Shown piece after piece: positions 1,677 to 48,741 of a stretch of 64,000 nt of DNA (within the stretch, counting starts at the first letter, position 1; every line of letters begins with the position of its first letter). The notes under the pieces were generated by a model. That model was not told the DNA's origin and did no database searches. It saw only the letters and a program-made list of their open reading frames with translations. The stretch comes from Deltaproteobacteria bacterium (lineage in GTDB: Bacteria > Myxococcota_A > UBA9160 > UBA4427). Location: NCBI GenBank assembly GCA_029261855.1, contig JAJDAN010000088.1, positions 1 to 64,000 on the forward strand, given 5' to 3'. Position numbers and translations under genes: made by a program.

Positions 1677-1783
1677 GACTCGCGCGCGGGTCCGGTCGGT
1701 CGCTTCGGACCGGGCCCGCGACGCCTCTCCCCACTCCTGCGTCCCGGGTTAGACTTCGCAATCAACCCAGCAGGAGCCCTCCC

Positions 1784-2245: not shown

Positions 2246-2282
2246 GTCAGGGAGCTGACTCGAGGGGCTGATCCGGGGCGAA

Positions 2283-3167: not shown

Positions 3168-3321
3168 CCCTTGATACGGGCGGAGTGGTGGAATGGCGGC
3201 GTGCAGAGCGGCAGGGGACGAGTCCTTGCTGAGCCCGAATCATGGCAGGCTTCGCGGTGCGTCGCGAGGCCGCTACTTTCTCGACCCCTTCCTCGTTCTC
3301 GCCCTCTCCCGGGAGACCCCC

Positions 3322-4446: not shown

Positions 4447-4459
4447 CCGCGGCCTGCCG

Positions 4460-5262: not shown

Positions 5263-5688
5263 ATGTGCTCGATTCTCTGTCCACGGTCCCGGCCGACCAC
5301 CGCCGTCGTCCCCCTTCTCTCGGGTCTTTTCTCGTCTCGTTTCTCGGCTCGGGCTCTAGTTCTGGCTCTGGTTCTGCCTCTCCCTGTGGCTCTGGGCTGC
5401 GGCGAGCGACAGCCCGACCCGGCCGTGTCGACGGCCGCAGCGTCCGCGCAGGCCGCGGTGCGGATTCCCTTCGAGCTCTATGGCCATCCCGGACCGTGGT
5501 GGCGCGACGACGCCAGTCAGGCGGAGTTCGACCAGGACATCTGGCAGTGCCGCACCGAGAGCAAGCGCGCCCGTGCCGATGCCCCGTCGGAAGCCCGCAA
5601 GGACGTGGCGTACCGGGCGTTCGTCGATTGCATGGCCGCCCAGGCCTGGCATCGGGGTCAACCGCCCCGAGAGGAAGCTGCAGGCTGA
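5263..5688 (+). CDS. Small putative lipoprotein
   Basis: A 141-residue product with a long N-terminal hydrophobic region ending in VALGC at Cys46, an imperfect lipobox. It is followed by an Ala-rich linker and a domain with two further cysteines (WQC, VDC). The latter half (PWWRDDASQAEFDQDIWQC, then AFVDCMAAQAW) looks like the small envelope lipoproteins that end in a DCMxxxGW-type motif. The DNA coding for the hydrophobic region is a low-complexity CTCGGGCTC/CTGGCTCTG run. The start is uncertain because in-frame alternatives exist. Function unknown. Confidence 0.55.
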   Translation: MCSILCPRSRPTTAVVPLLSGLFSSRFSARALVLALVLPLPVALGCGERQPDPAVSTAAASAQAAVRIPFELYGHPGPWWRDDASQAEFDQDIWQCRTESKRARADAPSEARKDVAYRAFVDCMAAQAWHRGQPPREEAAG

Positions 5689-5812
5689 TGCATCCATGGG
5701 ACCCTCCCGCGAGATCTGGTCTCGATAGGCTCGGGCCCGTGTGGGCCTCTACGGGAACGACGATCGGGGGCCGGGCGGAACGACAACGCGAGCGGAAAAA
5801 CCGCTCGCCGGG

Positions 5813-7075
5813 TCAATCGGCTTCCGCATCCGGCTCTACGTCTCGCGCCGCGGCGTTGAAGATGGACTTAGCCATCAGGCTGGTCTCGGACTTCGCGCGG
5901 GTCCGGTAGACCAGGGCGCGAACACTCCGGGTCTTGTCGTCGTCGGGCTCGGCCAGCCAGGCGAACTCGGCGAGCTCGCAGGCCAGTGCCAGGTCGCCGT
6001 CCGAGCAGGCGTCTTCCGCACGCTCGGCGAGGTGGCGGGCGCCACCGGCCGCAACCGCCAGCGCACGGGCGAGATCCGCGTCGCGAGACGGCTTCAGGTG
6101 CGCGGGGTTGCCGTCGTACCAGCCGCCGTACAAGCGCCACAGGTTGCGGACGATGAAGAGCGGATCGTCGTAGATCGGCCGGAGATACGGGCGCGTGAGC
6201 AGCTCCTCGGGCAGCTTCACCCCGTGGACGACGTCGTTCAGGGTCGCACCGTCGTTCATCAGCGCGAGGGTCTGCTCGCTGATGGTCTCGAGCAGCTCCG
6301 CCGACTCGGAGAGCGCGCGGGCAACGCGATCGGCGCCGAGGATCGGCGGACCGTGGCCCGGAAAGAGCTGCTCGGGCGAGAGAGCCGCCATCTTGCGGAG
6401 CGCGACCGCCCATTCTCGGGGATAGCGCTGGGCCTTCTGGGGATTCCCGCAGTTCGGAGCAGCCCAGATGAACAGGTCCCCGGTATAGATCGCCTTGCGG
6501 TCGGGCACCCAGGCCCAGATGCCATCGTCGGTCTCGCCGCGGTCGTGGAACAGCTCGACGGTCGTGCCCCCCACCTCGATCCGCCGTTCGGCCCCGACGG
6601 TTTCATCGGGGTAGCGGTAGTCCTTGGGGAAGACCGGCTTCGGGAAGCCAAACTGGCGGGCGTTGATGTGGCCGTTGTAGCCGTTGGTGAGCTGGTAGCG
6701 ATCAAAGCGGGCGGGGCAGGCTTCGTGGGCGACGATGCGCGCGGCCGGCCGGCCCTGGTCTACCGCCTCAGCATGGAAGTGATGCAGCCCGAAGACGTGG
6801 TCCACGTGGCCATGGGTATAGATGCCGGTGTGGACGGGCGCGTCGGTCCATGCCCGGACCGCGTCGTACATGGCCTGGGCGTGGAAGAAGCTCGACGTAT
6901 CGACGAAGACGAGCCCCTCTTCGGTCTTGAGGATGAGTGCGTTCGAAAAGGCCGACATGAACGCCGCACCCTCATCGAGCACCTCGAGTCCCACGAGAAC
7001 GCGACCCGGGTGGATGTTGACCTCACCGAGGTCACCATTCCACGCCCGCTCCGCCAGCTCCAGCACCTCTCCCAT
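5813..7075 (-). CDS. Alkyl-sulfatase-like metallo-beta-lactamase-fold hydrolase
   Basis: A 420-residue enzyme with the metallo-beta-lactamase signature THGHVDH (His88, His90, Asp92, His93). Further metal-ligand candidates lie in ELFHDRGETDD and YTGDLF, with a late His in FPGHGPP. The C-terminal 130 residues (RNLWRLYGGWYDGNPAHLKP, then ARHLAERAEDACSDGD) match the alkyl sulfatase dimerisation domain. The SCP2-like third domain of long SdsA enzymes is absent. It probably hydrolyses an alkyl sulfate or a related ester; there is no signal peptide. The ATG at 7075 is preferred over the in-frame codon at 7099 because GGAAAGGGG precedes it at ribosome-binding distance. Confidence 0.85.
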   Translation of the reverse strand: MGEVLELAERAWNGDLGEVNIHPGRVLVGLEVLDEGAAFMSAFSNALILKTEEGLVFVDTSSFFHAQAMYDAVRAWTDAPVHTGIYTHGHVDHVFGLHHFHAEAVDQGRPAARIVAHEACPARFDRYQLTNGYNGHINARQFGFPKPVFPKDYRYPDETVGAERRIEVGGTTVELFHDRGETDDGIWAWVPDRKAIYTGDLFIWAAPNCGNPQKAQRYPREWAVALRKMAALSPEQLFPGHGPPILGADRVARALSESAELLETISEQTLALMNDGATLNDVVHGVKLPEELLTRPYLRPIYDDPLFIVRNLWRLYGGWYDGNPAHLKPSRDADLARALAVAAGGARHLAERAEDACSDGDLALACELAEFAWLAEPDDDKTRSVRALVYRTRAKSETSLMAKSIFNAAARDVEPDAEAD

Positions 7076-7705
7076 GACCGCCCCTTTCCAAAGGAGCAAT
7101 CAGGGTAGCCCGAGACCCGACCCTGCAAGTCGGGACGACACGGGCCGGTCTCAGAGCCCGAATGACACCACGGCGGTTCGGGTGAACGGCTTCCGGCGAT
7201 GGAAAACAGGATGAGCGGCCGGATGCGGACGGCCGCTCATTCCCATTTTCGCTCCTCGCGGTGCCGGCGGGTCCCCAGAAGCCAGGGTCCGAAGACGCGT
7301 GCGACTACTTGTGAGAGACGTGCCAACAGGGTGCGGCGGGGTGCTTCGAGCACCCAGGGTTCATCGTGCTGACCCCGGCCCGGGTCCTCTTGATCCAACA
7401 CCACCACGTGACACATGTTAAGGCACGACGGGGCCTTCGGGGAATACCCCAATTGGGTGGCGAGGCCAGTTCTTCGACACGTCAACGGCGGTCGCGTGAC
7501 GGCAACGCGAAGAGATCGGTGAACGGGGTCCAACCGAGACTCCAATGCGACACGCGTCGGGAACGCCTTCCCTGAAGTTCCGCTGCCACTGCAACCCACC
7601 CGGACGGCAACCGGCCATGCTTCGGTTCAGCCTGTCCGACGGCCGACCGATAGACACACCAGGCGGCGTACGTCCGGCGCTGACGCAACGGGTTGAGGAA
7701 CGCCC
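7076..7705. other. Long intergenic region
   Basis: About 630 bases between divergently oriented genes with no gene I can support. The only clear structure is the perfect inverted repeat at 7211-7240. Open frames on both strands lack protein-like composition. The region just before 7706 presumably holds the promoter of the PilZ gene, but I see no convincing hexamer pair. Confidence 0.5.
7211..7240. terminator. Perfect 10-bp inverted repeat (possible terminator)
   Basis: ATGAGCGGCC and its exact reverse complement GGCCGCTCAT flank a 10-base spacer. TCCCATTTTC follows on the plus strand, a weak T-rich tail. It lies about 135 bases upstream of the start of the minus-strand hydrolase gene and faces no plus-strand gene end within 1.5 kb, so a protein-binding or structural role is as likely as termination. 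Confidence 0.35.
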
Positions 7706-8971
7706 ATGGGGTTGAGTTCGAAGACGCTCGACGTCTCCTTCGATGACCAGGAGGACTTCGAGCACGAGTACCGGACGAACATCAGCAATGGTGGGATCTT
7801 CGTCGCGACGAGCCAGATCCTCGACGTGCGGGACCGGGTCACGATCGAGCTGAAGCTGCGCTTCGTACGCAAGGGCCTCAATCTCAAGGGAGAGGTCGTG
7901 CACGTCGTGGGCGAAGAGCTCGCGGCCACCGGGGCAACGCCGGGCGTCGCCGTCCAGTTCGAGGCACTCCCGGCAGAGATCCGGATGGTCTTCGAGCCAG
8001 TACTCGCGGCAATCGCCGCGCAACCCAAGCCCGCCCCGCGTCAGAAACCGAAGAAGACCGCGCCGAGCCCGGATCCAGACCACGACGATCGACGCGCCGC
8101 GCCCCGAAGTCGCGCCCGCGTGCGGGCACGTGTCCACTGCCCCGGCTGCGAGATCATCGAGGGCCGAACCCGCAACCTCAGCATCACCGGTCTTCTGGTG
8201 TCTATCGGCAATGCTTCGCCCATCGACATCGGCGAGCCCGTGCGCGTGACCATCACCAACCCCGAGACCGGCGTCGAACGCGAGATCCTCGGCAAGGTCG
8301 CGCGACACGTGAAGGGAGAGGGCGGCGTCATTCGCGCAATCGGCGTGCAGTTCTACGTCCGCGACGCGGAACGGGCTGAAGTAGAGCAGTTCCTGCGCGA
8401 TCTGCGGGCCACGGAGCACACCCGACATCTCGGCGGGATCCAGGGCGAAATCTCGGAGCTTGGGCTCGCGAACCTGGTGCAGACACTGGGTCTGGCCGCC
8501 CGCGAAGGGACCCTCGACGTCATGCGCGGCGCCGAAGAGGGCTACATGGCGTTCGAAGGCGGCTGCCTGCGCGCCGCGAGCCTGGGAGGCGCCCGTGGCG
8601 TCAAGGCCCTCGCGCGCATGTTGACCTGGACCGAAGGGCGCTTCGAATTCCATGCCCGGGTCGACCCCTCGCTCCCGCCCGGCGATCTCACGCCTCTCGA
8701 GGGCGCGTTGCTCGAAGCCATGCGACTGATGGACGAGAGCGCGGACGTCGACCGAAGCAACTTCCCACCGGATGCGCTGCTCGACGTCGATGCCGCCGCG
8801 CGGCAGGCCGGTGGTGAATGCAGCAAGCTCGAGGATTCGGTGCTGGACCTCGCCGTCACGGGCATGAACGTGCAGCGAATTCTCGACATCGTTCCGGAGA
8901 CCGACGACGAGATCTATCTCGCCATGTGGAACCTCAGCGAGCGCGGACTCGTGTCGATCCGGCGCGCTTGA
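7706..8971 (+). CDS. PilZ-PilZ-DUF4388 protein
   Basis: A 421-residue cytoplasmic protein. Residues 1-105 form a PilZ-like domain of the variant common in deltaproteobacteria (YRTNISNGGIFVAT). Residues 128-235 are a second PilZ domain with an Arg-rich start (RRAAPRSRARVRARV) and N157-LSITG162, close to the RxxxR...(D/N)xSxxG cyclic-di-GMP-binding pattern. Residues 240-345 (GEISELGLANLVQTLGLAAREGTL...) fit DUF4388. A helical tail follows, with repeating ILDIVPETDDEIY. A role as a second-messenger effector adaptor is inferred. There is no adjacent signalling gene. The ATG follows TGAGGAACGCCC, a weak ribosome site. Confidence 0.85.
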   Translation: MGLSSKTLDVSFDDQEDFEHEYRTNISNGGIFVATSQILDVRDRVTIELKLRFVRKGLNLKGEVVHVVGEELAATGATPGVAVQFEALPAEIRMVFEPVLAAIAAQPKPAPRQKPKKTAPSPDPDHDDRRAAPRSRARVRARVHCPGCEIIEGRTRNLSITGLLVSIGNASPIDIGEPVRVTITNPETGVEREILGKVARHVKGEGGVIRAIGVQFYVRDAERAEVEQFLRDLRATEHTRHLGGIQGEISELGLANLVQTLGLAAREGTLDVMRGAEEGYMAFEGGCLRAASLGGARGVKALARMLTWTEGRFEFHARVDPSLPPGDLTPLEGALLEAMRLMDESADVDRSNFPPDALLDVDAAARQAGGECSKLEDSVLDLAVTGMNVQRILDIVPETDDEIYLAMWNLSERGLVSIRRA

Positions 8972-9006
8972 CGCGGCATTCCCAGCGACGCACGCTCCGA
9001 CCGCCC

Positions 9007-10011
9007 ATGCCCCCGCCCCCCGTCCCCGCGTCCCTCTACGACCGCGCGGTTCGCCCGATCTCCGACCCCGACGTCCCGCAACCCGCTTGCGAGATCTGCG
9101 GTGCGAAGACGGCAAGGCCCTTGTTCGAGATCGAGGGCGTCGACGCCCCCATCGTGGCGTGCACGGGCTGCGGGCTCGGCCGCTTCCATCCCATGATCGA
9201 CGACGAGCGCATCCGATCCTTCTATCCCGAGAACTACTACGGCGAGCCCGGAACCAAGTTCCGTCCGATTCTCGAGCGCCTCGTCCGGGCGGTTGCGGCG
9301 CGCCACATCGGCTTCCTCTCGCGCGACGTACCTTCGGGCGGGTCGATCCTCGACGTCGGCTGTGGGCGGGGCGTTCTGTTCGGGCCGCTTGCCGACCGAG
9401 GCTTTCGGGTGTTCGGGGTCGAGGCCAACGAGCACGCGATCCGAGGCTGTGATGCACGCGCCGAGGTCCGCATCGCGACGCGCCTCTCGGACGCCGGCTT
9501 CGAGGCGGAGAGCTTCGACCAGATCGTCATCTGGCACGTCCTCGAGCACATGGTGGACCCCTTCGACGCCATCGCAGAGTGCAGTCGCCTGCTGCGGCCG
9601 GGAGGACGGCTGATCGTCGCGGTACCGAACTTCGAGAGCTGGCAGGCGCGTTGGAGCGGACCGCACTGGTTCCACCTGGATCCTCCCCGCCACCTCTACC
9701 ACTTCCCGTGTTCCGCTCTCGCGACACTGGTCGAGAAGCACGGCTTCCAGGTGACCTCGAGCCACCACTTCTCCTTGCGTCAGAATCCGTTCGGCTGGAT
9801 CCAGAGCGCGCTCAACCGCTTCACGCGCCAGCCCACCGGTGGGCTCTACACGCTGCTCCACCAACACGAAGGAGCTGCCCTGTCGACGACGACCCGTGTC
9901 GGCATGTGGCTCTGCCTGGTTGCGGCGACGCCCCTGGCGATCGGTCTCAGCGTGATCGCCGCCTGGCTACGGACCGGGGCGACGGTGCACGTGGTGGCGG
10001 TCAAGCAGTAG
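9007..10011 (+). CDS. Class I SAM methyltransferase with N-terminal zinc ribbon
   Basis: A 334-residue protein. Cys28-x2-Cys31 and Cys52-x2-Cys55 form a zinc ribbon. The Methyltransf_23-type domain begins at motif I ILDVGCGRG (114-122), with WHVLEHMVDP and LRPGGRLIVAVPN further on. A hydrophobic helix near the C-terminus (about 295-317) suggests membrane association. This architecture is common next to glycan biosynthesis genes and may act on a sugar or lipid-linked intermediate. It is a paralogue of the gene at 54588-55508 in overall layout. The ATG at 9007 is chosen because it precedes the zinc ribbon at a sensible distance; longer in-frame starts would overlap the PilZ gene. Confidence 0.85.
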   Translation: MPPPPVPASLYDRAVRPISDPDVPQPACEICGAKTARPLFEIEGVDAPIVACTGCGLGRFHPMIDDERIRSFYPENYYGEPGTKFRPILERLVRAVAARHIGFLSRDVPSGGSILDVGCGRGVLFGPLADRGFRVFGVEANEHAIRGCDARAEVRIATRLSDAGFEAESFDQIVIWHVLEHMVDPFDAIAECSRLLRPGGRLIVAVPNFESWQARWSGPHWFHLDPPRHLYHFPCSALATLVEKHGFQVTSSHHFSLRQNPFGWIQSALNRFTRQPTGGLYTLLHQHEGAALSTTTRVGMWLCLVAATPLAIGLSVIAAWLRTGATVHVVAVKQ

Positions 10012-10036
10012 CCGCGAGAAGCGCGCGTCGAGAGCA

Positions 10037-11320
10037 CTACTCCAGATAGCCGAGTGCCCGCAGGCGCGACGCGTCCTCTTCGCTGATCTCTCCCTCGCCC
10101 CTGTCCTCGGCGGCGAGCTTCGCGGTCAGCTCCTGGACCCGGGCGAGATACTCGAGCCCGACCTCGCGGTCCTCCCCGATCCGGTTGTCGGTCTCACCGG
10201 GGTCGGTTTCGAGGTCGTAGAGCTGCCACTTGCCCATCTTGCGGCGGTGGAAGGCGGCCTTGTAGCGGCCGCGACGGTACGTGATGTAGTCGCGCTCGCT
10301 CAGGAAGAGCTCATCCGGTGCGAACAGCTCCGATTCATCCGCCAGCTCCGGGCGGAGCCCCGCCACGCTTCGGACCAGGCCCGGAACATCCCGGGTACGC
10401 AGCAGGCGGGACGGTTCGTCGAAAACCGCGGGCGAGACGATCAAGGGGATGTCGAGCAGGGGCTGGAAGGACGGGTTCCCGAAGTGATGATTCACGGGGC
10501 CCTTCCAGTGCAGCTCGCCCAGGTTCTCGCCGTGATCGGAGATCAAGAAGAGGACCGTTCGCTCGCCGCGCAGGCCGGCGTCTGCCAGGATCGCGAGCGC
10601 CTTCGACAGTTCGACGTCGAAGCGTTCGACAGCTTCTGCGTAGCTCTCGAGCTTGGTCTGGTAGTCGTGTACGTCGAGGTAGTGCACATAGACGAAGGCG
10701 GGGCCCGGTGGTCTGTCGCCAAGGACCTTCTCGAGGGCACCGTTCACGAGAGGCGCGGCTCTTGCGGCGACGAGCACCTGCCGCGGCAGGTCCGCGCGTT
10801 CGGCGCCAACCTCCGCCCAGGCGTCGAAGCCCTGGTCGTAGCCCGCAGGAGCAAAGAGCAGACGATTCGCGACGACACCCGCCGTCCAGTAGCCCGCGTC
10901 CCGCAAGGACTCGGCAAGGGTGGTCAGACCCTGGGGCACGCAGCTGTCCTCTGGGCCCGCGGCGAAGCGCACCATCCCGCACCAGTGGCGCCCCTCCCAG
11001 CCGAGGGGCTCTGCGACGACACCCGACTCGATGCTCGGCGTCCGACCCGTGAAGAGCGCCGCCATCGACATCGTGGTCTGGTGATAGGACGCCTGGAGCT
11101 GCGTGAAGACCTGGCCCGCGTCCGCCAGGCCCTGCATCGTCGGGGTCGCGATGTCTGCGCCGTAGGCCGAAACGTGGTCACGCCGCAGCGTATCGACGAC
11201 GATCAGCACGATGTTCGGCGGCGCGTCGGCGGAGGTCTCCCGGTCCGCGCAGCCGATCGAAAGGGCTCCCGCCAGCAGCAGGAACAGAAGCGGGGACCAG
11301 AGGACGGAAGAGCGCTGCAC
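10037..11320 (-). CDS. Sulfatase-fold lipoprotein with Thr at the nucleophile position
   Basis: A 427-residue member of the alkaline phosphatase/sulfatase superfamily. A signal peptide ends in the lipobox SIGC (Cys24). The metal-binding Asp43 lies in NIVLIVVDTLRRD and a later DHGE lies in LISDHGENLGE. The CxPxRxxxxTG sulfatase signature is replaced by TTMSMAALFTG, which puts Thr82 where formylglycine forms; it is therefore probably not a classical sulfatase. It may be a phosphodiesterase or phospho-group transferase. The C-terminus ends in LRALGYLE. The GTG at 11320 is preferred: it gives a proper lipoprotein signal and leaves room for the divergent gene at 11433. Confidence 0.8.
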   Translation of the reverse strand: MQRSSVLWSPLLFLLLAGALSIGCADRETSADAPPNIVLIVVDTLRRDHVSAYGADIATPTMQGLADAGQVFTQLQASYHQTTMSMAALFTGRTPSIESGVVAEPLGWEGRHWCGMVRFAAGPEDSCVPQGLTTLAESLRDAGYWTAGVVANRLLFAPAGYDQGFDAWAEVGAERADLPRQVLVAARAAPLVNGALEKVLGDRPPGPAFVYVHYLDVHDYQTKLESYAEAVERFDVELSKALAILADAGLRGERTVLFLISDHGENLGELHWKGPVNHHFGNPSFQPLLDIPLIVSPAVFDEPSRLLRTRDVPGLVRSVAGLRPELADESELFAPDELFLSERDYITYRRGRYKAAFHRRKMGKWQLYDLETDPGETDNRIGEDREVGLEYLARVQELTAKLAAEDRGEGEISEEDASRLRALGYLE

Positions 11321-21290: not shown

Positions 21291-22043
21291 GTGGCCATTG
21301 GTGCACTCGTCCCTCTTGCGCTGTTCATCATCGTCCTCGGAAGCGTCGGATACCGGCTGGTCATGCTCTGGCGTCGCACCCGACAGGTTCCGGAGATGCT
21401 CCTGGGTTTCGGACTCCTCACCGTGGGGTCGTCGTTTCCGCTGTCGGCCATGGGCCGGGCTCCCGCGCTGGCTCTCGAGCCGTTCGGCCGCTGGTGCTTC
21501 GCGGCAGGACTTAGCGTCAGCGTGGTCGGCCTCGCCCTGATGGTCTTCTTCAACTACTGGGTCTTCCGCAGAGGCTCGTCGTGGGCGATGGGCTTCTTCA
21601 TCGGGGTGTGCGCGCTGCTCGCGGGGTCCGTCGCGTTCATCGCGCTGGCGAACTTCTCGGGAGAGAGCATCGACGAGATCAAGCGCGCCATGCGTCCCGG
21701 CACCCTGACGATGATGTGCTCGGCCCTCGTGGCGTTTGCCTGGGGCGGGATCGAGTCCCTCCGCTACTGGGCGGCAGCCCGTCGACAGCTGGCACTGGGA
21801 CTCGCCGACCCCGTGGTCGTGAACCGCTTCTTGCTCTGGGGTACTTCGGGAGTGACGGCGAGCGTCCTGGTGGGCGCGATCGTTCTGTGCGTGCTTGCCA
21901 ACATGACCATCCTGCAAGAGCCGTTGCCGTTGGCCGTCCTGGCCAGCTGCGGAACGGTCGCGAGCGCGACGTGGTATCTCACCTTCCTGGCCCCGCCGCG
22001 CTACCTGGCCTTCATCCGCGCGCGCGCCGCTCAGAATTCCTGA
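21291..22043 (+). CDS. Seven-helix integral membrane protein, unknown function
   Basis: A 250-residue protein with seven predicted helices and almost no soluble part. Short charged loops occur, such as WRRTRQVPE after helix 1 and ESIDEIKRAMRPG in the middle. The layout (helix-loop pattern, GMGR/AMGRAP segment) resembles sensor-type 7TM domains without any attached kinase, but I cannot name a family. GTG start after GAGGTAGCTC. The 3' end overlaps the stop region of the antisense microprotein gene by 13 bases. Confidence 0.7.
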   Translation: MAIGALVPLALFIIVLGSVGYRLVMLWRRTRQVPEMLLGFGLLTVGSSFPLSAMGRAPALALEPFGRWCFAAGLSVSVVGLALMVFFNYWVFRRGSSWAMGFFIGVCALLAGSVAFIALANFSGESIDEIKRAMRPGTLTMMCSALVAFAWGGIESLRYWAAARRQLALGLADPVVVNRFLLWGTSGVTASVLVGAIVLCVLANMTILQEPLPLAVLASCGTVASATWYLTFLAPPRYLAFIRARAAQNS

Positions 22044-22156
22044 TAGATGAAGACCTGCGGGTCGCCCGGCGCAAAGATCACGAGCAGCGTGATCGCGCTC
22101 GCGTAGAGCAGGGCGTAGAGGCCGATCTTCAGGACGCGTTCAGCGTTCGCGGACAT
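22031..22156 (-). CDS. 41-residue membrane microprotein ending in an FIYxxF acyl-shuttle-like hexapeptide
   Basis: A complete small gene with ATG at 22156 and TGA at 22031-22033. The product starts MSANAERVLK, has one hydrophobic helix (about residues 11-29) and ends in APGDPQVFIYQEF. The basic residues precede the helix, so an N-in, C-out topology is expected, with the last six residues FIYQEF outside the cytoplasm. The layout is that of DltX and DUF5989-type microproteins. The Tyr of such a C-terminal hexapeptide accepts an acyl group from an MBOAT and passes it to a partner transferase. The start overlaps the end of the upstream SGNH gene by 17 bases, so the two are coupled. No MBOAT lies in this operon. 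Confidence 0.8.
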   Translation of the reverse strand: MSANAERVLKIGLYALLYASAITLLVIFAPGDPQVFIYQEF

Positions 22157-23315
22157 TCAGGATCTCCTGCGCCAGACGACGCTCGAGCTCTTCCAGCTCG
22201 AAGATGGGGTGGTCGAAATCGAGGAAGCGGTCGGCGGGAAGCCAGTCCCGGGCATCGACGACGGGGATCCCGTGAGACGCGGCCAGCTCGCGGGCGATGC
22301 CGGCAGCTCGTGCGGAGAGCCCCGGCCGGTGGAAGTCGCCATCGACGTCCTCCGCCAGGATCGGGTTCTCGGGCATCAGCACCAGGATCGCGGGCGGGTC
22401 CCCGGCTGCGAGACCGGCGAGCAGCGCGTCGAGTGCCACCACGGACGGAGTCTCTCGCGTCAGGGGATCCCGGCTCTGCGCCCGTTCCTTGCCCCGGACG
22501 AGGTGGCCCGGGCTCGCGGTCTCGAGATAGCGGGCGTAGCGCGCGAGGCCGCCCTGGGTCTGCCAGCTGCGGAACGCCGCAGCCACGGCGTCTGCACGGT
22601 CGCCGTAGAGGTGGGCGAAGAGCTCCTCCCGTGTCGCGAACTCCTCGGGCGGCGCGCCCGGGTCCGGCCTGGCAAGCAGACGATCGAGAATCGCTTCCCG
22701 GGCGAACTCGCGGAAGCGGTAGAGCGGCCAGACGGTGCGCAGCCAACGATCGATCTTTTCGCCAACCCCCGAAGCCGCGACCGAGCCATCGCGAAACCCG
22801 ATCTGCAGCAGATCCATCGGCCCTTCGCCCGGTGGGTGCGTGGCCTCGCGAATCAGGTCGGGGGCGCCCAGGGCCAGCACCACTACGTCCGGATCGAGGG
22901 CACCGAGGTGGCGCGCGAGCATCTCGGTCTCGCCGAGGAACGAACCGAAGATGCCCAGGTTCGAGGTGGCGATCTCGAGGTCCGGTCGGACGGCCGCGAA
23001 GGCGCGGTCGAGTCGGCGCTCGCGCACGGCGAGCACGACGCGTGAGTTGCCGAGCAACGCGACCCGAAGATCGGGGTCCCCCGCTGGCGCATAGATCTTC
23101 CGGGCCACCTGATAGGTCTGTGGGAACACCAGGCGCACCCCGCCGCTGTGCTCGAAGGCGGTCGGGCCCCACAGCAGGCTGGTGCGAGTGATGGCCCCAT
23201 CGAAGACGACGACCAGCGCCAGGGCCAGCAGCCAGGTGACCGGCGAGCGCCCGGGGTGCCCCGCGGCAGGCGAGGTGGGTGACGCAGCTGCGGAGGGAGC
23301 GGAGGGTTCGGCCAC
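22140..23315 (-). CDS. Membrane-anchored SGNH-like protein (candidate acyltransferase)
   Basis: A 391-residue protein. Residues 1-25 are Pro/Ala/Ser-rich, followed by one membrane helix (about 27-42). An extracytoplasmic alpha/beta domain then begins with LLGNSRV (Ser91 as the block I nucleophile candidate), a middle block ALGAPDL and a C-terminal DFDHP with Asp366-x-x-His369. This is the arrangement of SGNH hydrolase-fold O-acyl transfer proteins (DltD, AlgJ/AlgX, PatB relatives). It sits between another SGNH gene and the microprotein gene, which supports a role as the transferase that takes an acyl group from the microprotein. Confidence 0.75.
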   Translation of the reverse strand: MAEPSAPSAAASPTSPAAGHPGRSPVTWLLALALVVVFDGAITRTSLLWGPTAFEHSGGVRLVFPQTYQVARKIYAPAGDPDLRVALLGNSRVVLAVRERRLDRAFAAVRPDLEIATSNLGIFGSFLGETEMLARHLGALDPDVVVLALGAPDLIREATHPPGEGPMDLLQIGFRDGSVAASGVGEKIDRWLRTVWPLYRFREFAREAILDRLLARPDPGAPPEEFATREELFAHLYGDRADAVAAAFRSWQTQGGLARYARYLETASPGHLVRGKERAQSRDPLTRETPSVVALDALLAGLAAGDPPAILVLMPENPILAEDVDGDFHRPGLSARAAGIARELAASHGIPVVDARDWLPADRFLDFDHPIFELEELERRLAQEILNVRER

Positions 23316-23347
23316 GCGAGACGACTAGCCCGCTGCCGCGAGCGATG

Positions 23348-24529
23348 TCAACGCGCGTCCGTTCGGGCTGGGTTCTGGGTCATCGATGCAGCAATGGCTT
23401 GCGCGATGCGCTCGTAGCCCAGGGGCGTGAAATGCCCGTCCGCATTGGGCGGGAAGATCGCCTCTCCCTCGGACACGGACTGCTGCAGCACGGGCAGCAG
23501 GTCCAGGTATCGAAGACCGAGCCGATCCATGCGGCCCGCGAGTCCTGCCGAGATCCGCCGCTCCTCGCGGACGCCCCGCCAGTAGTCGTCGGGCGGGTCC
23601 CCCGCAACCCCGCCGGCCTCCACCGCCTGCGCGAAGATCCGTTCCTTCGTGGGGATCAGCACGATCAGCAGACGCGTATCCGGGAACGCTCGAATGCGCT
23701 GCTGCAGATCGTCGAGCACCGCGAGGGTGATCCGAAGACCTTCGCGGATCCTGGGCAGGCGGGAGTCGAGGGCTGCGAGTCGGTAGCGGGTGTGGAAGAC
23801 CGTCGACAGCCGGCCATCGTCGTAGACGAAACCCTCCTCGGGATGAGCCTGCGCCCACGCCCGGTCGCGTTCGGCGTCGACAGGGTCGTTGCCGCTGCGC
23901 GCGAACATGCGCGCCAGGGCGCTGTGCCGCGACAGCCACCCCGGGCTCGCCGGGGCTTCTCGACCGTGGTTCACGCGTTCGAAGAACATGCGCTGCAGCT
24001 CGGGATAGTCGGACTCGACGATGCGCCGACGCAGCCCCGCGTCCGGGTGACGCAGGGCCGCATGTGCTTCCAGGCCGTATGCGAGGGAGTATGCGTCGTA
24101 GACGTCGTTGCCGAAGTAGAGTGCGATGACGACGGTGGAAGGCGCGAGGGCCAGCGCTTCTTCGAGCTGGTGGCGGTACTGCACGATCCCGTAGCCGCCC
24201 CGTCCCATGTTGTAGACGCTGAGGTCCGCGATCTCGGCCAGACGTGCGGGCCAGGTGTCATCGATGTCCGCATTGACGCCCCAGGTCTGCGAGTCGCCGA
24301 GCGCCACGACGTCGACACGGTCCGGCCGCTCCCGGTTGCGGTAGCCCGCGGCGTCGTTCTGCCCGCTGCCCGGCAACGTGCGGTACTCGAGCAGCGGGTC
24401 GTCGACCCGTTCGCCGATGTCGTCGACGAGCAGACCGGACGCGCGCGATTCCAGGAGACGCGCCGCGCCTTCGGCGAGGGCCAGCCCGACCAGCGAGCCC
24501 AGCACGACAGCGAGCACCCGCTTCGTCAC
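23348..24529 (-). CDS. Membrane-anchored SGNH/GDSL hydrolase-fold protein
   Basis: A 393-residue protein with an N-terminal membrane anchor (about 4-22). The classical SGNH blocks are visible: ALGDSQTWG (Ser80), the Gly region NMGRGGYG, YFGNDVYD (block III) and DGHFTPLGY (His366). All catalytic elements are present, so an esterase or O-acyltransferase outside the membrane is expected. The start is a GTG overlapping the stop of the YfhO-like gene (GTGA), so I do not use the longer upstream open frame. It is the first of two different SGNH-type genes in this operon. Confidence 0.82.
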   Translation of the reverse strand: MTKRVLAVVLGSLVGLALAEGAARLLESRASGLLVDDIGERVDDPLLEYRTLPGSGQNDAAGYRNRERPDRVDVVALGDSQTWGVNADIDDTWPARLAEIADLSVYNMGRGGYGIVQYRHQLEEALALAPSTVVIALYFGNDVYDAYSLAYGLEAHAALRHPDAGLRRRIVESDYPELQRMFFERVNHGREAPASPGWLSRHSALARMFARSGNDPVDAERDRAWAQAHPEEGFVYDDGRLSTVFHTRYRLAALDSRLPRIREGLRITLAVLDDLQQRIRAFPDTRLLIVLIPTKERIFAQAVEAGGVAGDPPDDYWRGVREERRISAGLAGRMDRLGLRYLDLLPVLQQSVSEGEAIFPPNADGHFTPLGYERIAQAIAASMTQNPARTDAR

Positions 24530-26820
24530 GACGGAGACCGCCGGCGCCGCCACGCCGGCCACAGGAGCAGGCCGACCAGCACGGCCGCGGTCGCCCCGCT
24601 GATCCAGGCGCCCGATCGGAACGACCCGGGTTCGAAGTCGAGCTCCACGCGGTGGCGACCCGGTGACACCGCCACCGCCTTCCCGAGCAGGTTCGCCGCG
24701 ACGATCGGAACCGGCGCTCCGTCCAGCCGCGCCGTCCAGCCGGGATACGGCGCGTCCGCGACGACCAGATGAACGGGCTCGCTCGCCTCGACGACGACCG
24801 CGTAGCGCTCGGCGCTGCTCTCGACGGACACCAGCCGCGCGGCGGCCGCGGCCTCTTCCACCGGCACCGAGATCGGAATCGGCACCGGGGCCGAACCCTC
24901 GAGGACGGTGCGATCCCCTTCGGAGGGACCCGCGAATGCCTTCGCTGCAGCGGCTGCATCCGGAACCCAGCGCGTCTCGTGCGCGCGCGCAAGCTGCACG
25001 CGCGGTCGCGCGGCGGGGTTCTCCAGTACGAAGAAGCGACGCGCTTCGTCCTCGAAGACGCGCGTGAGATCCGGCGCATAGGGCGACGGCACGCGCCGAT
25101 CGCGCGCCACCACCCAACGCACGCTCTCCGCGTCGATGAAGCGCGTGCCCGGCGCTCGCGGCGATTCTCCTCGGACTTCGGTTGCGACGATCGGCTCGAC
25201 GGCTTCGCGACGAGCGAGCGGCAACGCCAGGTTCGCGTTCAGCGAGGGAACACCCCACAGCAGGTTCGATCCGGCGTCCAGCGAAGACAGATACAGCCCG
25301 ACGAGCCGATCGAGACCCGTCGCGTCCGGTGACGCGAAGCCGATGTAGGAGAAGAACCGCGGGACGTTCGCGACGCGGAAGCCCTGCTCGTCCGGCAGGC
25401 CCTGCAGGTAGGCGACCGTGGGCGGAGGCAGGCGAACCGACTCGATGTCGACCAGCGCGTGACGCGGGCGCACGAGCGCGATCTCGACGAGCAGCAACAC
25501 GACGAGTGCCATCGGGAGTCGCCTGCCGATGCGCCGCCCGCCCGCGACGACGACCCCGACTACACCGACTGCCGCGATCACGGGGAACGCGTAGCCGAGC
25601 GCTCGCACCTCGTCATCGTGGAGCCATAGACAGAGACCCGTGAGCACGACAGCCACGAAGAGCCCCTGGAACAGCAAGGGGCGGGTCGGCTCGGCTTCGT
25701 CGCACAGTCGCTGGACCCCGTACCCCGCGAGCACCGCCACCCCGATCAGCCCGACCGTCGAATACAGATGGGTGATCCGGAAGCTGTCGAGGCCGGGCAG
25801 CACGCCGTGCAGCGCGGAATACAGGGGTGAGCGGTCTGCGAGGCCAAGCTGGAAGAGCACGAGGGTGGCGAGCAGCCACGCGAGGGGTTCCCGAGCAGCA
25901 CGTAGCCCGAGACCCGCGAAGAGCAGCACCAGGAGGCTCCCGAGTCCGGGTTCGACTGCGGCGAGCTTGCCGACACCGAAGAGCAGACCGCGCAGCTGCA
26001 GAGCGGGCTCACCGGACTGCGCCAGCTCGACACCACCCGCCCGCACCGACTGCCCGGCGAGCTCGAGGGTCGGCAGCAGCTGGACGGCGGACAACCCCGC
26101 GGCGACGGCGACGGCCAGCAGTCCCGTCGCGAGGTGACGACCGGGCGCGCGCCAGCGCGTCGCGTCCGAGCGCACCAGCAGCAGAACGCCCGCAAAGATC
26201 GCGAATGCGTGAACCGCCTGGGGGTACCCGGCCAGCAGCATCGCCGCGACGGCGGCACCCAGCACGCCTGCGGTGACGACGCCCGGCGCGCGCCACCAGC
26301 GCTCGAGCGCCCAGAGGGCCAGCGGCGCGATCGAAGTCGACAGGGCGATCGCCGAATTACCGGTCAGGCCGAGCCAGTCCTGGGACGCCGCCAACGCGAG
26401 GCCTGCGAACAGAGATGCCGCCACGCCCAGACCCAACGCGCGGCACAGCCCGAAGGTCCCGAAGGCGGCAAGAAAGGCGCAGATCACGTGCAGGAGTCCG
26501 TGTCCGTACAGGGTTCCGGCGTCGCCGAAGACGCGCGGCAGCGCGCCGAAGAGCAGCAGATTCAGGGGGTGCAGAAAGCCGCCCTGACCTTCGGCGAAGA
26601 TCGGATGGCCGCCGTAGATGGCGTCGGACCACAGGGGAATGCGGCCTTCTTCGAGCGCCGATGCGAGCAGGGTCTGCAGAGGCAGGCTCACCGACAGCGC
26701 GTCGCCGTGCGCGAAGGTCGCGTGACCCGCGACCACCGGACCGAAGAGCAGCGCGAAGACCCCGACGAAGAGCACGGCTGCACCGAGGGCGGGCGGCACG
26801 CTGCGCTGGGAATTCGCCAA
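24526..26820 (-). CDS. YfhO-like GT-C membrane glycosyltransferase
   Basis: A 764-residue protein with about 12 or more membrane helices (to about residue 470), an extracytoplasmic C-terminal domain and a final helix (about 735-755). The HGDALSVSLP loop carries Asp40, then GRIPLWSDAIYGGHP, typical of the YfhO family. The C-terminal part has YPGWTARLDG and VSPGRHRVELDFEPG, as in other members. YfhO in Bacillus transfers sugars to envelope polymers with a GT2 partner. I choose the TTG at 26820 because GAGGAG lies 6 bases upstream; longer frames would overlap the divergent gene at 26870. It heads the operon that ends with the microprotein. Confidence 0.8.
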   Translation of the reverse strand: MANSQRSVPPALGAAVLFVGVFALLFGPVVAGHATFAHGDALSVSLPLQTLLASALEEGRIPLWSDAIYGGHPIFAEGQGGFLHPLNLLLFGALPRVFGDAGTLYGHGLLHVICAFLAAFGTFGLCRALGLGVAASLFAGLALAASQDWLGLTGNSAIALSTSIAPLALWALERWWRAPGVVTAGVLGAAVAAMLLAGYPQAVHAFAIFAGVLLLVRSDATRWRAPGRHLATGLLAVAVAAGLSAVQLLPTLELAGQSVRAGGVELAQSGEPALQLRGLLFGVGKLAAVEPGLGSLLVLLFAGLGLRAAREPLAWLLATLVLFQLGLADRSPLYSALHGVLPGLDSFRITHLYSTVGLIGVAVLAGYGVQRLCDEAEPTRPLLFQGLFVAVVLTGLCLWLHDDEVRALGYAFPVIAAVGVVGVVVAGGRRIGRRLPMALVVLLLVEIALVRPRHALVDIESVRLPPPTVAYLQGLPDEQGFRVANVPRFFSYIGFASPDATGLDRLVGLYLSSLDAGSNLLWGVPSLNANLALPLARREAVEPIVATEVRGESPRAPGTRFIDAESVRWVVARDRRVPSPYAPDLTRVFEDEARRFFVLENPAARPRVQLARAHETRWVPDAAAAAKAFAGPSEGDRTVLEGSAPVPIPISVPVEEAAAAARLVSVESSAERYAVVVEASEPVHLVVADAPYPGWTARLDGAPVPIVAANLLGKAVAVSPGRHRVELDFEPGSFRSGAWISGATAAVLVGLLLWPAWRRRRSPS

Positions 26821-26855
26821 GACAAGCTCCTCGGGCGCAAACCCTAGTCGATCCG

Positions 26856-26861
26856 TATCCT
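26856..26861 (+). promoter_or_regulatory. Possible -10 hexamer of a leaderless transcript
   Basis: TATCCT ends 8 bases before the ATG at 26870, and no ribosome site lies between. No -35 is recognisable at 16-18 bases. It falls in the 49-base gap between divergent genes. Confidence 0.35.
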
Positions 26862-26869
26862 CTCGCGCG

Positions 26870-29041
26870 ATGTCCCCGATCTCCCGCCAGGCCCTTCGCA
26901 TCGCGGTGGTCCTCGCGGTGGTGGCCTTCGCAATCCCGCTGTGCCGACGGTCCATCGTGCTCGCAGACGAGGGCTACATCCTGCTGCAGTCCTGGGACCT
27001 GCTGCAGGGGAAAGTCCTGTACCGGGACATGGATGCCTTCGTGACGCCCGGCATCTGGGTGTTGCTGGCCGGCACCTTCAAGCTGCTCGGGCCGAGCGTG
27101 ATCGCATCGCGCGTCCCAGTGTTCTTCGCCTTGCTGGCGATGTACGCCGCCGGCTACCGCATCACCGAACGCCTGGCCGGCCCGCGTCACGCTCTCGCAA
27201 GCCTCGCCGGATTGGCGGTGTTCACGGTGTGGGCGTTCCCGAGCTGGACCTTCGCATTCTACTCGCCGTTTGCCGTGACCTTCGCCCTGATCGCCCTCGA
27301 ACGGCTGCTCGCCTGGCGCGATTCGTCCCGCCCCCGCGATCTTCTGGTGTGCGGTGCGATGGTCGGCGCGGCGATCGTCTTCAAACAGAACTACGGGGTC
27401 TTCGCCCTGATCGGGATCGCCCTCGGCGTGCTCGCGGTGCGCGCCGAGCAGGAAGAGGCAGGAGCCTGGGTGAGGAAATGGGTGCGGGCATGGACCCGTG
27501 ACGGACTCGTCGTCGCCACCGGTGTCGCGGCCGTCGGTCTTCCCTTCATTGCCTGGCTGGGGTGGCAGGGCGCGCTACCTGCGACCTGGGAGAGCCTCGT
27601 CGTACATCCTTTCGAGTTCGGAGCGGCGCACGGCATCCCCTACCTGCCGCTGTCCGCACTGACCTGGCCGGGCCTGATGAAGACGGCAGACCAGATGCTG
27701 ACCTATGCCGCGCAGCCCGTGTACCGGGTACCGCCGGCCGCAGGCTGGCTGTATGCGATCGACTTCGTCGAGCGAATGCACGTCCTGATCTACTGGGTGC
27801 CGCCGGTGATCCTCGGCCTGGGCGCGGCGCTGTCGTACCGGCCCGACGCGAAGCGTCGGATCGACGCGGGCCTGGCCAGCGTCATCGCGGTGGCCGGCAT
27901 GGTGTTTCTCGGGGTCTTCCCGCGCGCGGACTTCAATCACCTGATCAACGTCTATCAGCCCATCGTCGTCGCGGGGGTCGTCTTGACGCACCGGCTGCTC
28001 GGCGGACGACCGCGTCCCGGGTCTCTGACACGACGGCTCGCGTGTGCCGGTGGAGCCCTCGTCCTCTCTCTCTATGTGGCCGTCGCGGGCTACTGGTACT
28101 GGGGACTGCTCCACCATCTCGACACCGAGGTCAGCGTCGAGCGGGCGGGGGTCCTCGATCGCAGCGAGCAGGCCCAGCGGATCGACTACCAGGTCCGGAC
28201 CATCCAGTCCGAGATCGCGCCCGGCGAGGCACTGCTCACCGTCCCGGACCTGGCCATGCTGAACTTCCTGAGCGACCGCCCGATGCCGAGCCCCTACTAC
28301 AACCTCTACGACCACCACATTGCTCACGACGGCGGCGCCGCCGTCGTGGCGGGCGCACGCGAACGCGCCGGGCCACTGGCGATCACCCGCTTCAACGACT
28401 TCTTCTCGGACCACCGCGGACTGCGCCGGTACGCGCCCGAGCTCATCGACTATCTCCACGACGAATGGGACATGAAGTACAAGGTGGGACGCGAGGACTT
28501 CGTACACCTCGTGCGCCGCGATTCACCGCGCACGGACGCGCCCGGCGAGAGCATCCTTCCCTACTGCGATCTCTCGCGGGGCTATCAGACCGTGCGCGAA
28601 CACCTCCTGTTTCCGGCCCTTTATCACGACCCGGGCACGGGGCGCGAGATGGAAGCCGCCACCATCGAAACCCTGTGCAGCGTGCCGGTCCCGGAGGAAG
28701 GCGGGGTCTTCGAGGTGCGCATCGACTACCGCGCACCCGCTTCCGTCGGGCCGCGAACCACCCTCACCGTCGAGGTTCTGGTCCTCAACCCCGGCGAGAA
28801 GATCCGAATGGGACGCAGGGTGTTCCAGGTCAAGGCCGACCCGGGCTTCCCCCGGCGCGTGGCCTTCCAGCAGCCCTTCCGACTCGACCTCTCGCCCTGG
28901 GCGGGAAGCGAGGTCCGCTTGATCCTGCGCACGATCCGCCGCGGCCAGGTGGAGATCCGCCCGCTCGAAGCCCGGGGCTTCGGAACCGTCTGGGAAGACC
29001 CGCGCCTGCTTCCGCCGGACCCGACGGGGACGGGCTCGTGA
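26870..29041 (+). CDS. GT-C-type membrane glycosyltransferase with C-terminal beta domain
   Basis: A 723-residue protein with about 10 helices over residues 8-420 and a large outer domain. The first loop has LADEGYILL (Asp33-Glu34), matching the acidic pair of GT-C enzymes, then DMDAFVTPGIW. It is a paralogue of the protein at 55514-57757, where MDEGHVLLF, LYPLPGAFYALAQAFKLFG and FKQNYG/CKQDYG segments line up. The C-terminal region has a jelly-roll-like stretch (PVPEEGGVFEVRIDYRAP; RRGQVEIRPLEARG). It overlaps the SGNH start (GTGA), so it belongs to the GT-C, SGNH, MBOAT operon. Confidence 0.82.
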   Translation: MSPISRQALRIAVVLAVVAFAIPLCRRSIVLADEGYILLQSWDLLQGKVLYRDMDAFVTPGIWVLLAGTFKLLGPSVIASRVPVFFALLAMYAAGYRITERLAGPRHALASLAGLAVFTVWAFPSWTFAFYSPFAVTFALIALERLLAWRDSSRPRDLLVCGAMVGAAIVFKQNYGVFALIGIALGVLAVRAEQEEAGAWVRKWVRAWTRDGLVVATGVAAVGLPFIAWLGWQGALPATWESLVVHPFEFGAAHGIPYLPLSALTWPGLMKTADQMLTYAAQPVYRVPPAAGWLYAIDFVERMHVLIYWVPPVILGLGAALSYRPDAKRRIDAGLASVIAVAGMVFLGVFPRADFNHLINVYQPIVVAGVVLTHRLLGGRPRPGSLTRRLACAGGALVLSLYVAVAGYWYWGLLHHLDTEVSVERAGVLDRSEQAQRIDYQVRTIQSEIAPGEALLTVPDLAMLNFLSDRPMPSPYYNLYDHHIAHDGGAAVVAGARERAGPLAITRFNDFFSDHRGLRRYAPELIDYLHDEWDMKYKVGREDFVHLVRRDSPRTDAPGESILPYCDLSRGYQTVREHLLFPALYHDPGTGREMEAATIETLCSVPVPEEGGVFEVRIDYRAPASVGPRTTLTVEVLVLNPGEKIRMGRRVFQVKADPGFPRRVAFQQPFRLDLSPWAGSEVRLILRTIRRGQVEIRPLEARGFGTVWEDPRLLPPDPTGTGS

Positions 29042-30186
29042 AGGTCGCGATCGCCGCGGCGTCGGTCGCGGTCTTTCTCCTCATCTCGATCGCCGTGCCC
29101 ACGGCGATCTTTCGCGCCGCCAAGGCCCTGCACGAAGACGCGGTCGCCGTACCACTCGACGCCCTGTCCCGCATCGACATCCGCCTCGGACGCCTGTCGA
29201 AGGTTGCACCCGAGCTCGAGCGGATCGCCTACCTCGGCGACTCGATGCTGGTGTCGTTCGGGCCGACGCCCGCACCTCCTCAGAAGCTGCAGGCCGCCCT
29301 CGACCGGAAGGTCGGAGCCGGCCGCTTCCGGGTGCAGGCCGTCGCCGCCCCGGGCATGGGCCCCTTCGACTTCTATTTCATCGCGGATCGGGTCGTCGCC
29401 GCGCGGCCGGACCAGGTCATCCTGCCCGTCAATCTGACCGCCTTCTCGAAGAGCTGGCGCGAGACCTTCCCCCGCGAGCAACTCGCCGGCGTCCTGCAGA
29501 TCGAGCGCATCCCCGAGGCCCTGCGCCTACCACTCGGGTGGATCGGCATGACGGCGGATCGGCTGCTCGGGTATGTCGCGGTCGTCCAGCTCGGTGGTCT
29601 CGATGCCTGGCGCCGGCTTTCCCGGGACCAGGCGCGTGTGGGAGCGCTTCGCACCTCCCTCGCACGTCGACTCGGTCACCACTTCGGAAACGACGCCGAC
29701 AATCGCTTCGCGCTGCTGCACGTCCGGCACTTCAAGGCGAAGTTCAACCTGCCGGACAGCGGGCGGCTGACCCCCGAGGCCATCGACAACCGCTTCGGCA
29801 CCGCACTGCGTGGGCTCCCCGAAGACGATCCCAACCTGGCGATGCTCGACGCGACGATCCGCATCCTGCGCGACGCCGGCATCGACGTCCTGGTCTACGC
29901 GAACCCGACGAACGTCGAACACATCGAACGCGTCGGCGCGGCGAATCGCGCGGGATTGGCGAAGAGCATCCGGGCAATCGAGTGGACGGCCACCGCCGCC
30001 GGCGCGCGCTTCATCGACCTGCACGACCGGGTGGGGGACGACGGCTTCAAGGACGGCGCCGGGCATCTGAATCTGCAGTCGGGCGAAGGAGTAGTCGATG
30101 GCGGCCAGCTGCTGGCCGACAGCCTGGTGCCGCACCTGGTCGAGCAGGCAAGGCGGCGCCTGACAGCCGAAAAGAGCGGCGACTGA
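29038..30186 (+). CDS. Membrane-anchored SGNH-fold protein, partner of the adjacent MBOAT
   Basis: A 382-residue protein with an N-terminal anchor (about 3-24). LGDSM contains Ser69 as the block I nucleophile, ILPVNLTAF stands at the block III position with Asn, and the late DGAGHLNLQSG has Asp and His. It is a divergent but plausible SGNH O-acyltransferase. The GTG start overlaps the upstream stop (GTGA), and its TGA overlaps the MBOAT ATG (TGATG), the strongest coupling possible. An AlgX/AlgJ/DltD-like role, receiving the acyl group from the MBOAT's C-terminal motif and placing it on a glycan, is inferred. Confidence 0.75.
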   Translation: MKVAIAAASVAVFLLISIAVPTAIFRAAKALHEDAVAVPLDALSRIDIRLGRLSKVAPELERIAYLGDSMLVSFGPTPAPPQKLQAALDRKVGAGRFRVQAVAAPGMGPFDFYFIADRVVAARPDQVILPVNLTAFSKSWRETFPREQLAGVLQIERIPEALRLPLGWIGMTADRLLGYVAVVQLGGLDAWRRLSRDQARVGALRTSLARRLGHHFGNDADNRFALLHVRHFKAKFNLPDSGRLTPEAIDNRFGTALRGLPEDDPNLAMLDATIRILRDAGIDVLVYANPTNVEHIERVGAANRAGLAKSIRAIEWTATAAGARFIDLHDRVGDDGFKDGAGHLNLQSGEGVVDGGQLLADSLVPHLVEQARRRLTAEKSGD

Positions 30187-31589
30187 TGCTCTTCAACAGC
30201 TTCCAGTTCGCCGTCTTCTTCGCCGTCGTGCTGCTGCTGCACCGCAGCCTGCCGGCGTCGCGACGCAACGGCTTGCTGCTGGGCGCCAGTCTGTTCTTCT
30301 ACGCCATGTGGGTGCCCGCCTATCTCGTGCTGCTGCTCGGCGAGATCGGCATCAACTACGCGCTGCTGCGCACGATCGCGCGAGGTCGACACAAGCGCCT
30401 GGCACTGACCGCCTCCGTGGTCGTCACCCTCGGTCTGCTCGGCGGTTTCAAGTACGCGGCGCTGGCGGTGGGGACCCTCGCGCCGATCCTGCAGACGGGC
30501 TTCGGCCTCGACGTTCCCATCCCCGAGATCTTCCTGCCCCTGGGCATCTCCTTCTACAGCTTCCAGATGCTGGGGCTGGCCATCGACACCTACCGCGGAG
30601 ACCTCGAGCCTCCCGAGTCGCTGTCCCGCTACGCGCTCTTCGTCTCCTTCTTCCCCCAGCTGATCGCGGGACCGATCCTCCGCGGCAGGGAATTCCTGCC
30701 CCAGCTGGCGCGCGGCGCGCGACCCACCCCGGAGCGGACGCAACGCGGCCTCTGGCTCATCGCCTTCGGTCTGATGAAGAAGGTCGTCCTCGCGGACTTC
30801 CTGCTCGCTCCGTTCGTGAACGACATGTTTCGCGTGCCCGGTCTCGGCAGCGCAGCCTTCCACTGGGTCGGGGCGTTCTGCTTCGCCTTCCAGATCTACT
30901 ACGACTTCTCGGGCTATACGGACATGGCGCGGGGCATCGCGTTGCTGCTCGGCTTCGAGCTGCCGGCCAACTTCCTGGAGCCCTACCTGTCCAGGGACCC
31001 GTCGGAGTTCTGGCGGCGCTGGCACATCACGCTATCGACGTGGCTTCGGGACTATCTCTACATCCCCCTCGGCGGGAATCGCGTCGGGCCTTCCCGCACG
31101 CTCGTCAACCTGCTCATCACGATGCTGCTCGGCGGCCTGTGGCACGGAGCCGCCTGGAACTTCGTCATCTGGGGCGCGCTACATGGCGCGCTCCTCATCG
31201 TGCACCGCTTGTTGGGCGGTCGTCGCGACCCGGACCGATCCCTGACGATGGGCGACGTCCCCCGCATCGCTGCGACCTTCGGGGTGGTATCGATCGCCTG
31301 GGTGTTCTTCCGCGCGCCAACCTTTGCCGACGCGAGCGCGTATCTGTCCGGCATGCTCGGCGCCGGCGACGGCACGGGCTGGCCCCTGTTCCAGACCGGG
31401 CTGGTCGGGATATGCGTCGGCCTTCACGTCCTCGAGCGGGTCGGCCGGCTGCGGGCACCCGAGCTGCGCACGGCGCTGAACCGGCAGTGGTTCGGTCCGC
31501 TGGTGCAGGGCGCAGCCTACGGGGTCGTCGTCGGGCTCGTCATCGCCGTCGCCGGCGCAGGCGGAGAGTTCATCTACTTCCAGTTCTAG
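30186..31589 (+). CDS. MBOAT O-acyltransferase (AlgI-like) with fused FIYFQF tail
   Basis: A 467-residue membrane-bound O-acyltransferase. The start MLFNSFQFAVFF, the EFWRRWHITLSTWLRDYLYIP block (His280) and the invariant His320 in GGLWHGAAWNF are diagnostic of the AlgI/DltB/PatA group. It has about 11-12 helices and normal AlgI length. The last six residues are FIYFQF, the acyl-shuttle hexapeptide that in AlgI/PatA-type systems is fused to the MBOAT. The neighbouring SGNH protein is the likely acceptor of the Tyr-bound acyl group. The substrate polymer is unknown; the upstream GT-C gene suggests a glycan. Confidence 0.92.
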   Translation: MLFNSFQFAVFFAVVLLLHRSLPASRRNGLLLGASLFFYAMWVPAYLVLLLGEIGINYALLRTIARGRHKRLALTASVVVTLGLLGGFKYAALAVGTLAPILQTGFGLDVPIPEIFLPLGISFYSFQMLGLAIDTYRGDLEPPESLSRYALFVSFFPQLIAGPILRGREFLPQLARGARPTPERTQRGLWLIAFGLMKKVVLADFLLAPFVNDMFRVPGLGSAAFHWVGAFCFAFQIYYDFSGYTDMARGIALLLGFELPANFLEPYLSRDPSEFWRRWHITLSTWLRDYLYIPLGGNRVGPSRTLVNLLITMLLGGLWHGAAWNFVIWGALHGALLIVHRLLGGRRDPDRSLTMGDVPRIAATFGVVSIAWVFFRAPTFADASAYLSGMLGAGDGTGWPLFQTGLVGICVGLHVLERVGRLRAPELRTALNRQWFGPLVQGAAYGVVVGLVIAVAGAGGEFIYFQF

Positions 31590-45768: not shown

Positions 45769-45769
45769 G

Positions 45770-48728: not shown

Positions 48729-48741
48729 GCGGGGGCCTGCT

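Follow-up and report, generated by a model that had tools for sequence, protein, structure and literature searches.

Organization of the Locus

The window analyzed here is the whole 64,000-nucleotide stretch of DNA, which comes from a deltaproteobacterial (probably Myxococcota) genome. Two gene clusters of interest lie 20 kb apart within it. The first contains a microprotein gene and two SGNH-fold genes.

22031-22156, minus strand: 41-residue, one-helix putative acyl-shuttle microprotein, DltX-like in form, with tail FIYQEF and Tyr38 (read from the open reading frame)
22034-22051, minus strand: codons of the C-terminal hexapeptide FIYQEF
22140-23315, minus strand: SGNH-A, a DltD-like, membrane-anchored putative transferase with conserved Ser91, Asp366, and His369 (Pfam, alignment)
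23348-24526, minus strand: SGNH-B, apparently in one operon with SGNH-A and upstream of it; associated with the system (Pfam)

The microprotein, MSANAERVLKIGLYALLYASAITLLVIFAPGDPQVFIYQEF, has its tyrosine at residue 38. Its gene starts inside the 3' end of the SGNH-A gene, with a 17-nt overlap, and the start is preceded by GGAG, which resembles a ribosome-binding site. The open reading frame and this overlap confirm an earlier note on this DNA, which described a 41-residue, one-helix protein ending in FIYQEF and coupled to two SGNH-fold genes. The single hydrophobic helix has basic residues before it and an acidic tail after it; by the positive-inside rule, the FIYQEF tail should therefore face the periplasm. 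The microprotein matches no Pfam family, DltX included, and is not recognized by NCBIfam. Nothing in the genome exceeds the cut-off of the DltX family PF12459, which two control genomes did exceed. On the plus strand, a convergent membrane-protein-like gene (21291-22043) overlaps the microprotein stop by 13 nt.

Across the whole 6.96 Mb genome, the pattern FxYxxF followed by a stop has nine true stop matches, namely seven MBOAT tails, one DUF5989 protein, and the window microprotein. The DUF5989 protein (PF19451; C62:39374, minus strand, or L026:6375-6659) has one helix and ends in FIYTLF, and its gene neighbors those of SxtJ and a carbamoyltransferase. L136 (FIYMVF) and L092 (LLYTLF) contain tails like it. 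The DUF5989 tail may be shuttle-like, in a system that has no MBOAT.

SGNH-A and SGNH-B both score over the Pfam PF13472 cut-off and are separated by 32 nt. Across 12 MBOAT-linked SGNH proteins, Ser91, Asp366, and His369 of SGNH-A show no or almost no variation. The top Foldseek rows for SGNH-A are DltD chains (E 1.5e-3), with low TM and on a poor model (pLDDT 53).

The Ligase, Carrier, and MBOAT Cluster

The second cluster, at 44584-47747, encodes three proteins in genes that overlap or abut.

46002-47747, minus strand: fatty-acyl-AMP-ligase-type (FAAL-type) adenylating enzyme
45770-46024, minus strand: acyl carrier protein with phosphopantetheine Ser41 in a DS motif (PF00550 over cut-off)
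44584-45768, minus strand: tail-less MBOAT, 394 residues, DltB-like architecture, catalytic His314

On the minus strand, the order is ligase, carrier, and MBOAT, as the earlier note had it, and the MBOAT lacks a C-terminal hexapeptide as it also stated. The MBOAT ends in KAFSAALFG and stops short of the final two helices and tail found in PatA-type MBOATs. His314, in the motif GLWHG, is conserved. The AlphaFold model (pLDDT 88) has DltB (6bug, 8jem) as its best PDB matches, with a VIA-align Z of 34.0 and 377 of 394 residues aligned, against a Z of 28.3 for the next fold relatives. The score to TIGR04091 (DltB) was rejected as a marker of tail-less MBOATs because tailed MBOATs score equally.

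The best family models and structures for the ligase are FAALs, with 7r7g and 3pbk first, which bears out the proposal that a FAAL-type enzyme takes the place of a D-alanine ligase. The match to NF006624 is full-length and above other acyl ligases; at 372 bits, it is under the 600-bit cut-off of that model. For the carrier, the top NCBIfam match is DltC, below cut-off. YfhO-like membrane proteins flank both halves of the system (24526-26955 and 48742-50973, Pfam on the first only), and a PgfS-like GT2 lies at 47751-48815; together they make a sugar-lipid glycosylation setting.

Linkage of the Genes in Related Genomes

Orthologues of SGNH-A are found in two related genomes, G003 (54% identity) and G086 (36% identity), and the MBOATs of both are 49% identical to the window MBOAT. 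A microprotein of the same length, with a single helix and a tail, lies in the same position beside SGNH-A in each (FVYQGF and FIYEAF, respectively). In G086, a single locus of 4.6 kb holds all five genes; G003 has four of them within about 3 kb and the ligase on another contig.

G003, contig C58 (L028):
1492-2667, minus strand: MBOAT
2712-3038, minus strand: carrier
3202-4452, plus strand: SGNH-A
4436-4567, plus strand: microprotein, tail FVYQGF

G086, contig C82 (L067):
5637-7439, plus strand: FAAL
ending at 7690, plus strand: carrier
7713-8882, minus strand: MBOAT
8930-10096, plus strand: SGNH-A
ending at 10220, plus strand: microprotein, tail FIYEAF

SGNH-B has no orthologue in either G003 or G086. 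It was rejected as a core part of the system, and the place that the earlier note gave it does not hold, as SGNH-A alone accompanies the microprotein in the relatives.

Among 379 genomes sampled from the phylum, the SGNH-A and MBOAT orthologues occur in an identical set of three, with a wide score gap below, and in none of the 379 does one occur without the other. A separate contig scan with SGNH-A as the query matched G003 as the sole genome. Three orthologous systems are known in all. The ligase has orthologues in G001 (61%), G003 (53%), and G086 (51%), after which identity drops to about 31%. G001, which is of the same genus, encodes this ligase orthologue together with a carrier and a tail-less MBOAT that is highly divergent (C87, L154); SGNH-A and the microprotein were looked for in G001 and not found.

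Because the five genes are linked in relatives, with SGNH-A and the MBOAT orthologue confined to the same three genomes, they are best read as one set whose linkage is variable, with the split in the window being local. The physical split looks like a lineage-specific rearrangement. The suggestion that the two loci form one pathway is upheld by the linkage of five of five genes in G086 and four of five in G003, and a check on co-occurrence, with SGNH-A and the 44584-type MBOAT in the same 3/379 genomes, came out in its favor.

MBOATs of the Genome

The genome encodes nine MBOATs. Seven of these end in their own FxYxxF tail and are of the PatA kind. The two that are tail-less, the window MBOAT at 44584 and one at C89:163394-164371, each have a microprotein. 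The latter is accompanied by its own SGNH protein, a carrier domain, and two ligases, as well as by a microprotein of 47 residues that ends in LRYLEI; a relative in G007 ends in FRYADI.

One of the tailed MBOATs is also in the window.

29038-30186, plus strand: SGNH protein paired with the tailed MBOAT
30186-31589, plus strand: MBOAT with its own FIYFQF tail; rejected as the microprotein's partner

The earlier note overlooked this MBOAT, which is nearer than the one at 44584; its choice of partner stands, since the nearer MBOAT is self-sufficient. With nine MBOATs in the genome and one only 8 kb away, the microprotein and SGNH-A could serve another MBOAT, such as that at 30186-31589, leaving the ligase, carrier, and 44584 MBOAT as a separate pathway. 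This is quite unlikely. The 30186-31589 MBOAT, like six others, has its own tail, and with an SGNH protein alongside it has no need of an external shuttle. The second tail-less MBOAT already has its own SGNH protein and microprotein, and the orthologue of the 44584 MBOAT is the neighbor of the microprotein and SGNH-A in both G003 and G086.

A Tail or a Microprotein

Seventeen tail-less MBOATs were compared with 17 loci that have a tailed MBOAT. A shuttle-like microprotein was defined as a one-helix protein of 32-47 residues with [FLV]xYxx[FI] at its very end. Such a microprotein adjoins 13 of the 17 tail-less MBOATs, and three more have one elsewhere in the genome; none was found in the 177 kb searched around the 17 tailed MBOATs. 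The difference in adjacency (13/17 against 0/17) has a Fisher p of 5e-6, with the related genomes being non-independent trials. One fixed script recovered a microprotein at 8 of the first 9 tail-less loci and at 0 of 17 controls. Visual inspection identified the one of the ninth locus (L077, FDYGRF) and the relatives in L041 and L113, which makes the count less than fully blind. The outcome that would have told against the proposal, that the microproteins go mainly with tailed MBOATs, is not what is found.

In G357 and G341, no microprotein adjoins the tail-less MBOAT, and scanning the genomes turned up microproteins ending in FIYVDF on other contigs; they resemble the microprotein that is adjacent in L115. 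An unlinked arrangement like that of the window therefore recurs. In G253, which has a tail-less MBOAT, a microprotein was sought and not found. An in-frame stop interrupts the gene for the tail-less MBOAT of L091 (G075:C111, near 5804).

Trees of the MBOAT core, read without a root, place all tailed proteins together on one side of one branch (100/99), so a single gain or a single loss of the tail is enough to explain the distribution. Tail-less MBOATs with a nearby carrier or ligase (the window, G003, G086, L027/L041, and L077/L113) group at 99/98 when long branches are dropped. The carrier and ligase are not exclusive to tail-less MBOATs, and that idea was rejected. In L122 (G081:C492), a FAAL and a carrier adjoin an MBOAT ending in FIYFQF, which is a carrier-fed system with a fused shuttle.

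The microprotein is short and without a family match, and a DUF5989 protein of the same genome likewise ends in an FxYxxF tail, so it could be taken for a chance open reading frame or an unrelated small membrane protein, such as a DUF5989-like one, with a coincidental tail. This is very improbable given that its size, helix, tail, and overlap with the SGNH-A stop are kept in three genomes whose SGNH proteins are 36-54% identical, and that no such open reading frame occurs in the 177 kb around the 17 tailed MBOATs. A different reading sees the microprotein as no more than a structural subunit or regulator of SGNH-A; the ligase, carrier, and MBOAT would then transfer the acyl group straight to a membrane lipid or protein, in the manner of eukaryotic MBOATs. 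In its favor, lipid and protein acyltransferases are among the fold matches of the MBOAT, and fatty acids, which a FAAL would suggest, are not known to us to be moved by any studied bacterial MBOAT-SGNH pair. Even so, direct acylation is unlikely: the invariant tyrosine hexapeptide and the SGNH triad agree with the acyl-tyrosine shuttle shown for DltX and PatA, and so does the way in which tail-less MBOATs and microproteins complement each other.

Comparison with Known Systems

To our knowledge, acyl transport on the tyrosine tail of a separate microprotein has so far been reported only for D-alanine decoration of the Gram-positive wall. In the Dlt pathway, DltB moves D-alanine from DltC to the tyrosine of DltX and then to the serine of DltD (PMC12148441). 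PatA takes an acetyl group from acetyl-CoA, places it on the tyrosine of the tail that it carries itself, and delivers it to PatB (PMC12148441). According to a 2025 paper on PatA/PatB, non-Dlt MBOAT-SGNH pathways have neither a carrier protein nor a microprotein of the DltX-like kind (PMC12148441).

The window system shares with Dlt (DltX-DltA-DltB-DltC-DltD), which D-alanylates teichoic acids, an adenylating ligase, a carrier that adjoins the MBOAT (here 45770-46024), a tail-less MBOAT, a separate one-helix FxYxxF microprotein, and a putative SGNH transferase. The MBOAT model is closest to DltB, and SGNH-A is closest to DltD on a low-confidence model. The systems differ in several respects. 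The ligase is FAAL-type rather than the D-alanine ligase DltA, the host is of the Gram-negative type and without known teichoic acid, and the microprotein is not recognized by Pfam DltX. The MBOAT and carrier score far under the DltB and DltC cut-offs, and the genes are split over 20 kb, with the microprotein coupled to the SGNH gene. Since the ligase and microprotein fall outside the DltA and DltX families, the system is not filed as a member of Dlt, though its working is probably Dlt-like.

PatA/PatB and other MBOAT-SGNH O-acetyltransferases (such as AlgI and WssH) likewise have an MBOAT, a periplasmic SGNH protein, and an acyl-carrying FxYxxF tail (PMC12148441). In those systems, the MBOAT itself bears the tail, on two additional helices, and acetyl-CoA serves as donor, whereas the window system has the tail as a separate protein and a carrier protein. 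The FAAL-ACP loading modules of lipopeptide and polyketide synthases share the ligase family and the carrier partner; here, there is no synthase, and a membrane acyltransferase would be the next step.

Proposed Pathway

The linkage in relatives and the shared genomes show that the parts, whose catalytic residues are conserved, belong together as a set. We consider it probable (roughly 0.8) that the two clusters make up one carrier-dependent transmembrane MBOAT-SGNH acylation pathway. Each transfer step in the following scheme is inferred from Dlt and PatA/PatB biochemistry. In the cytoplasm, the FAAL-type ligase would activate an acyl acid and load it onto the carrier protein. The tail-less MBOAT would take the acyl group from the carrier and conduct it along its tunnel to the microprotein, where Tyr38 would accept it in the periplasmic tail. 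The acyl-tyrosine tail would then swing to SGNH-A, where Ser91 would accept the acyl group and deliver it to a glycan of the envelope, the product of the neighboring glycosyltransferases. The ligase family suggests that the acyl group may be a fatty acid. The YfhO-like neighbors and the PgfS-like glycosyltransferase point to a sugar polymer or lipid-linked sugar as the likely acceptor.

Implications

For deltaproteobacterial (probably Myxococcota) genomes, these loci contradict the claim that MBOAT-SGNH pathways outside Dlt lack a carrier and a microprotein. The simple rule that a tail-less MBOAT requires a tail on another protein finds unannotated proteins of 32-47 residues, and in a carrier-fed system the acyl group could be something other than acetate or D-alanine. 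Should it prove to be a fatty acid, the system would represent a novel route for lipidating the cell surface. A broader reading, offered tentatively and at a little under even odds, is that free-standing shuttle microproteins are a general, and possibly ancestral, component of bacterial MBOAT-SGNH systems beyond Dlt, and that this branch moves a fatty acyl group from a FAAL-loaded carrier to an envelope glycan. If true, it would be a fatty-acylating relative of Dlt in Gram-negative bacteria, working across the inner membrane.
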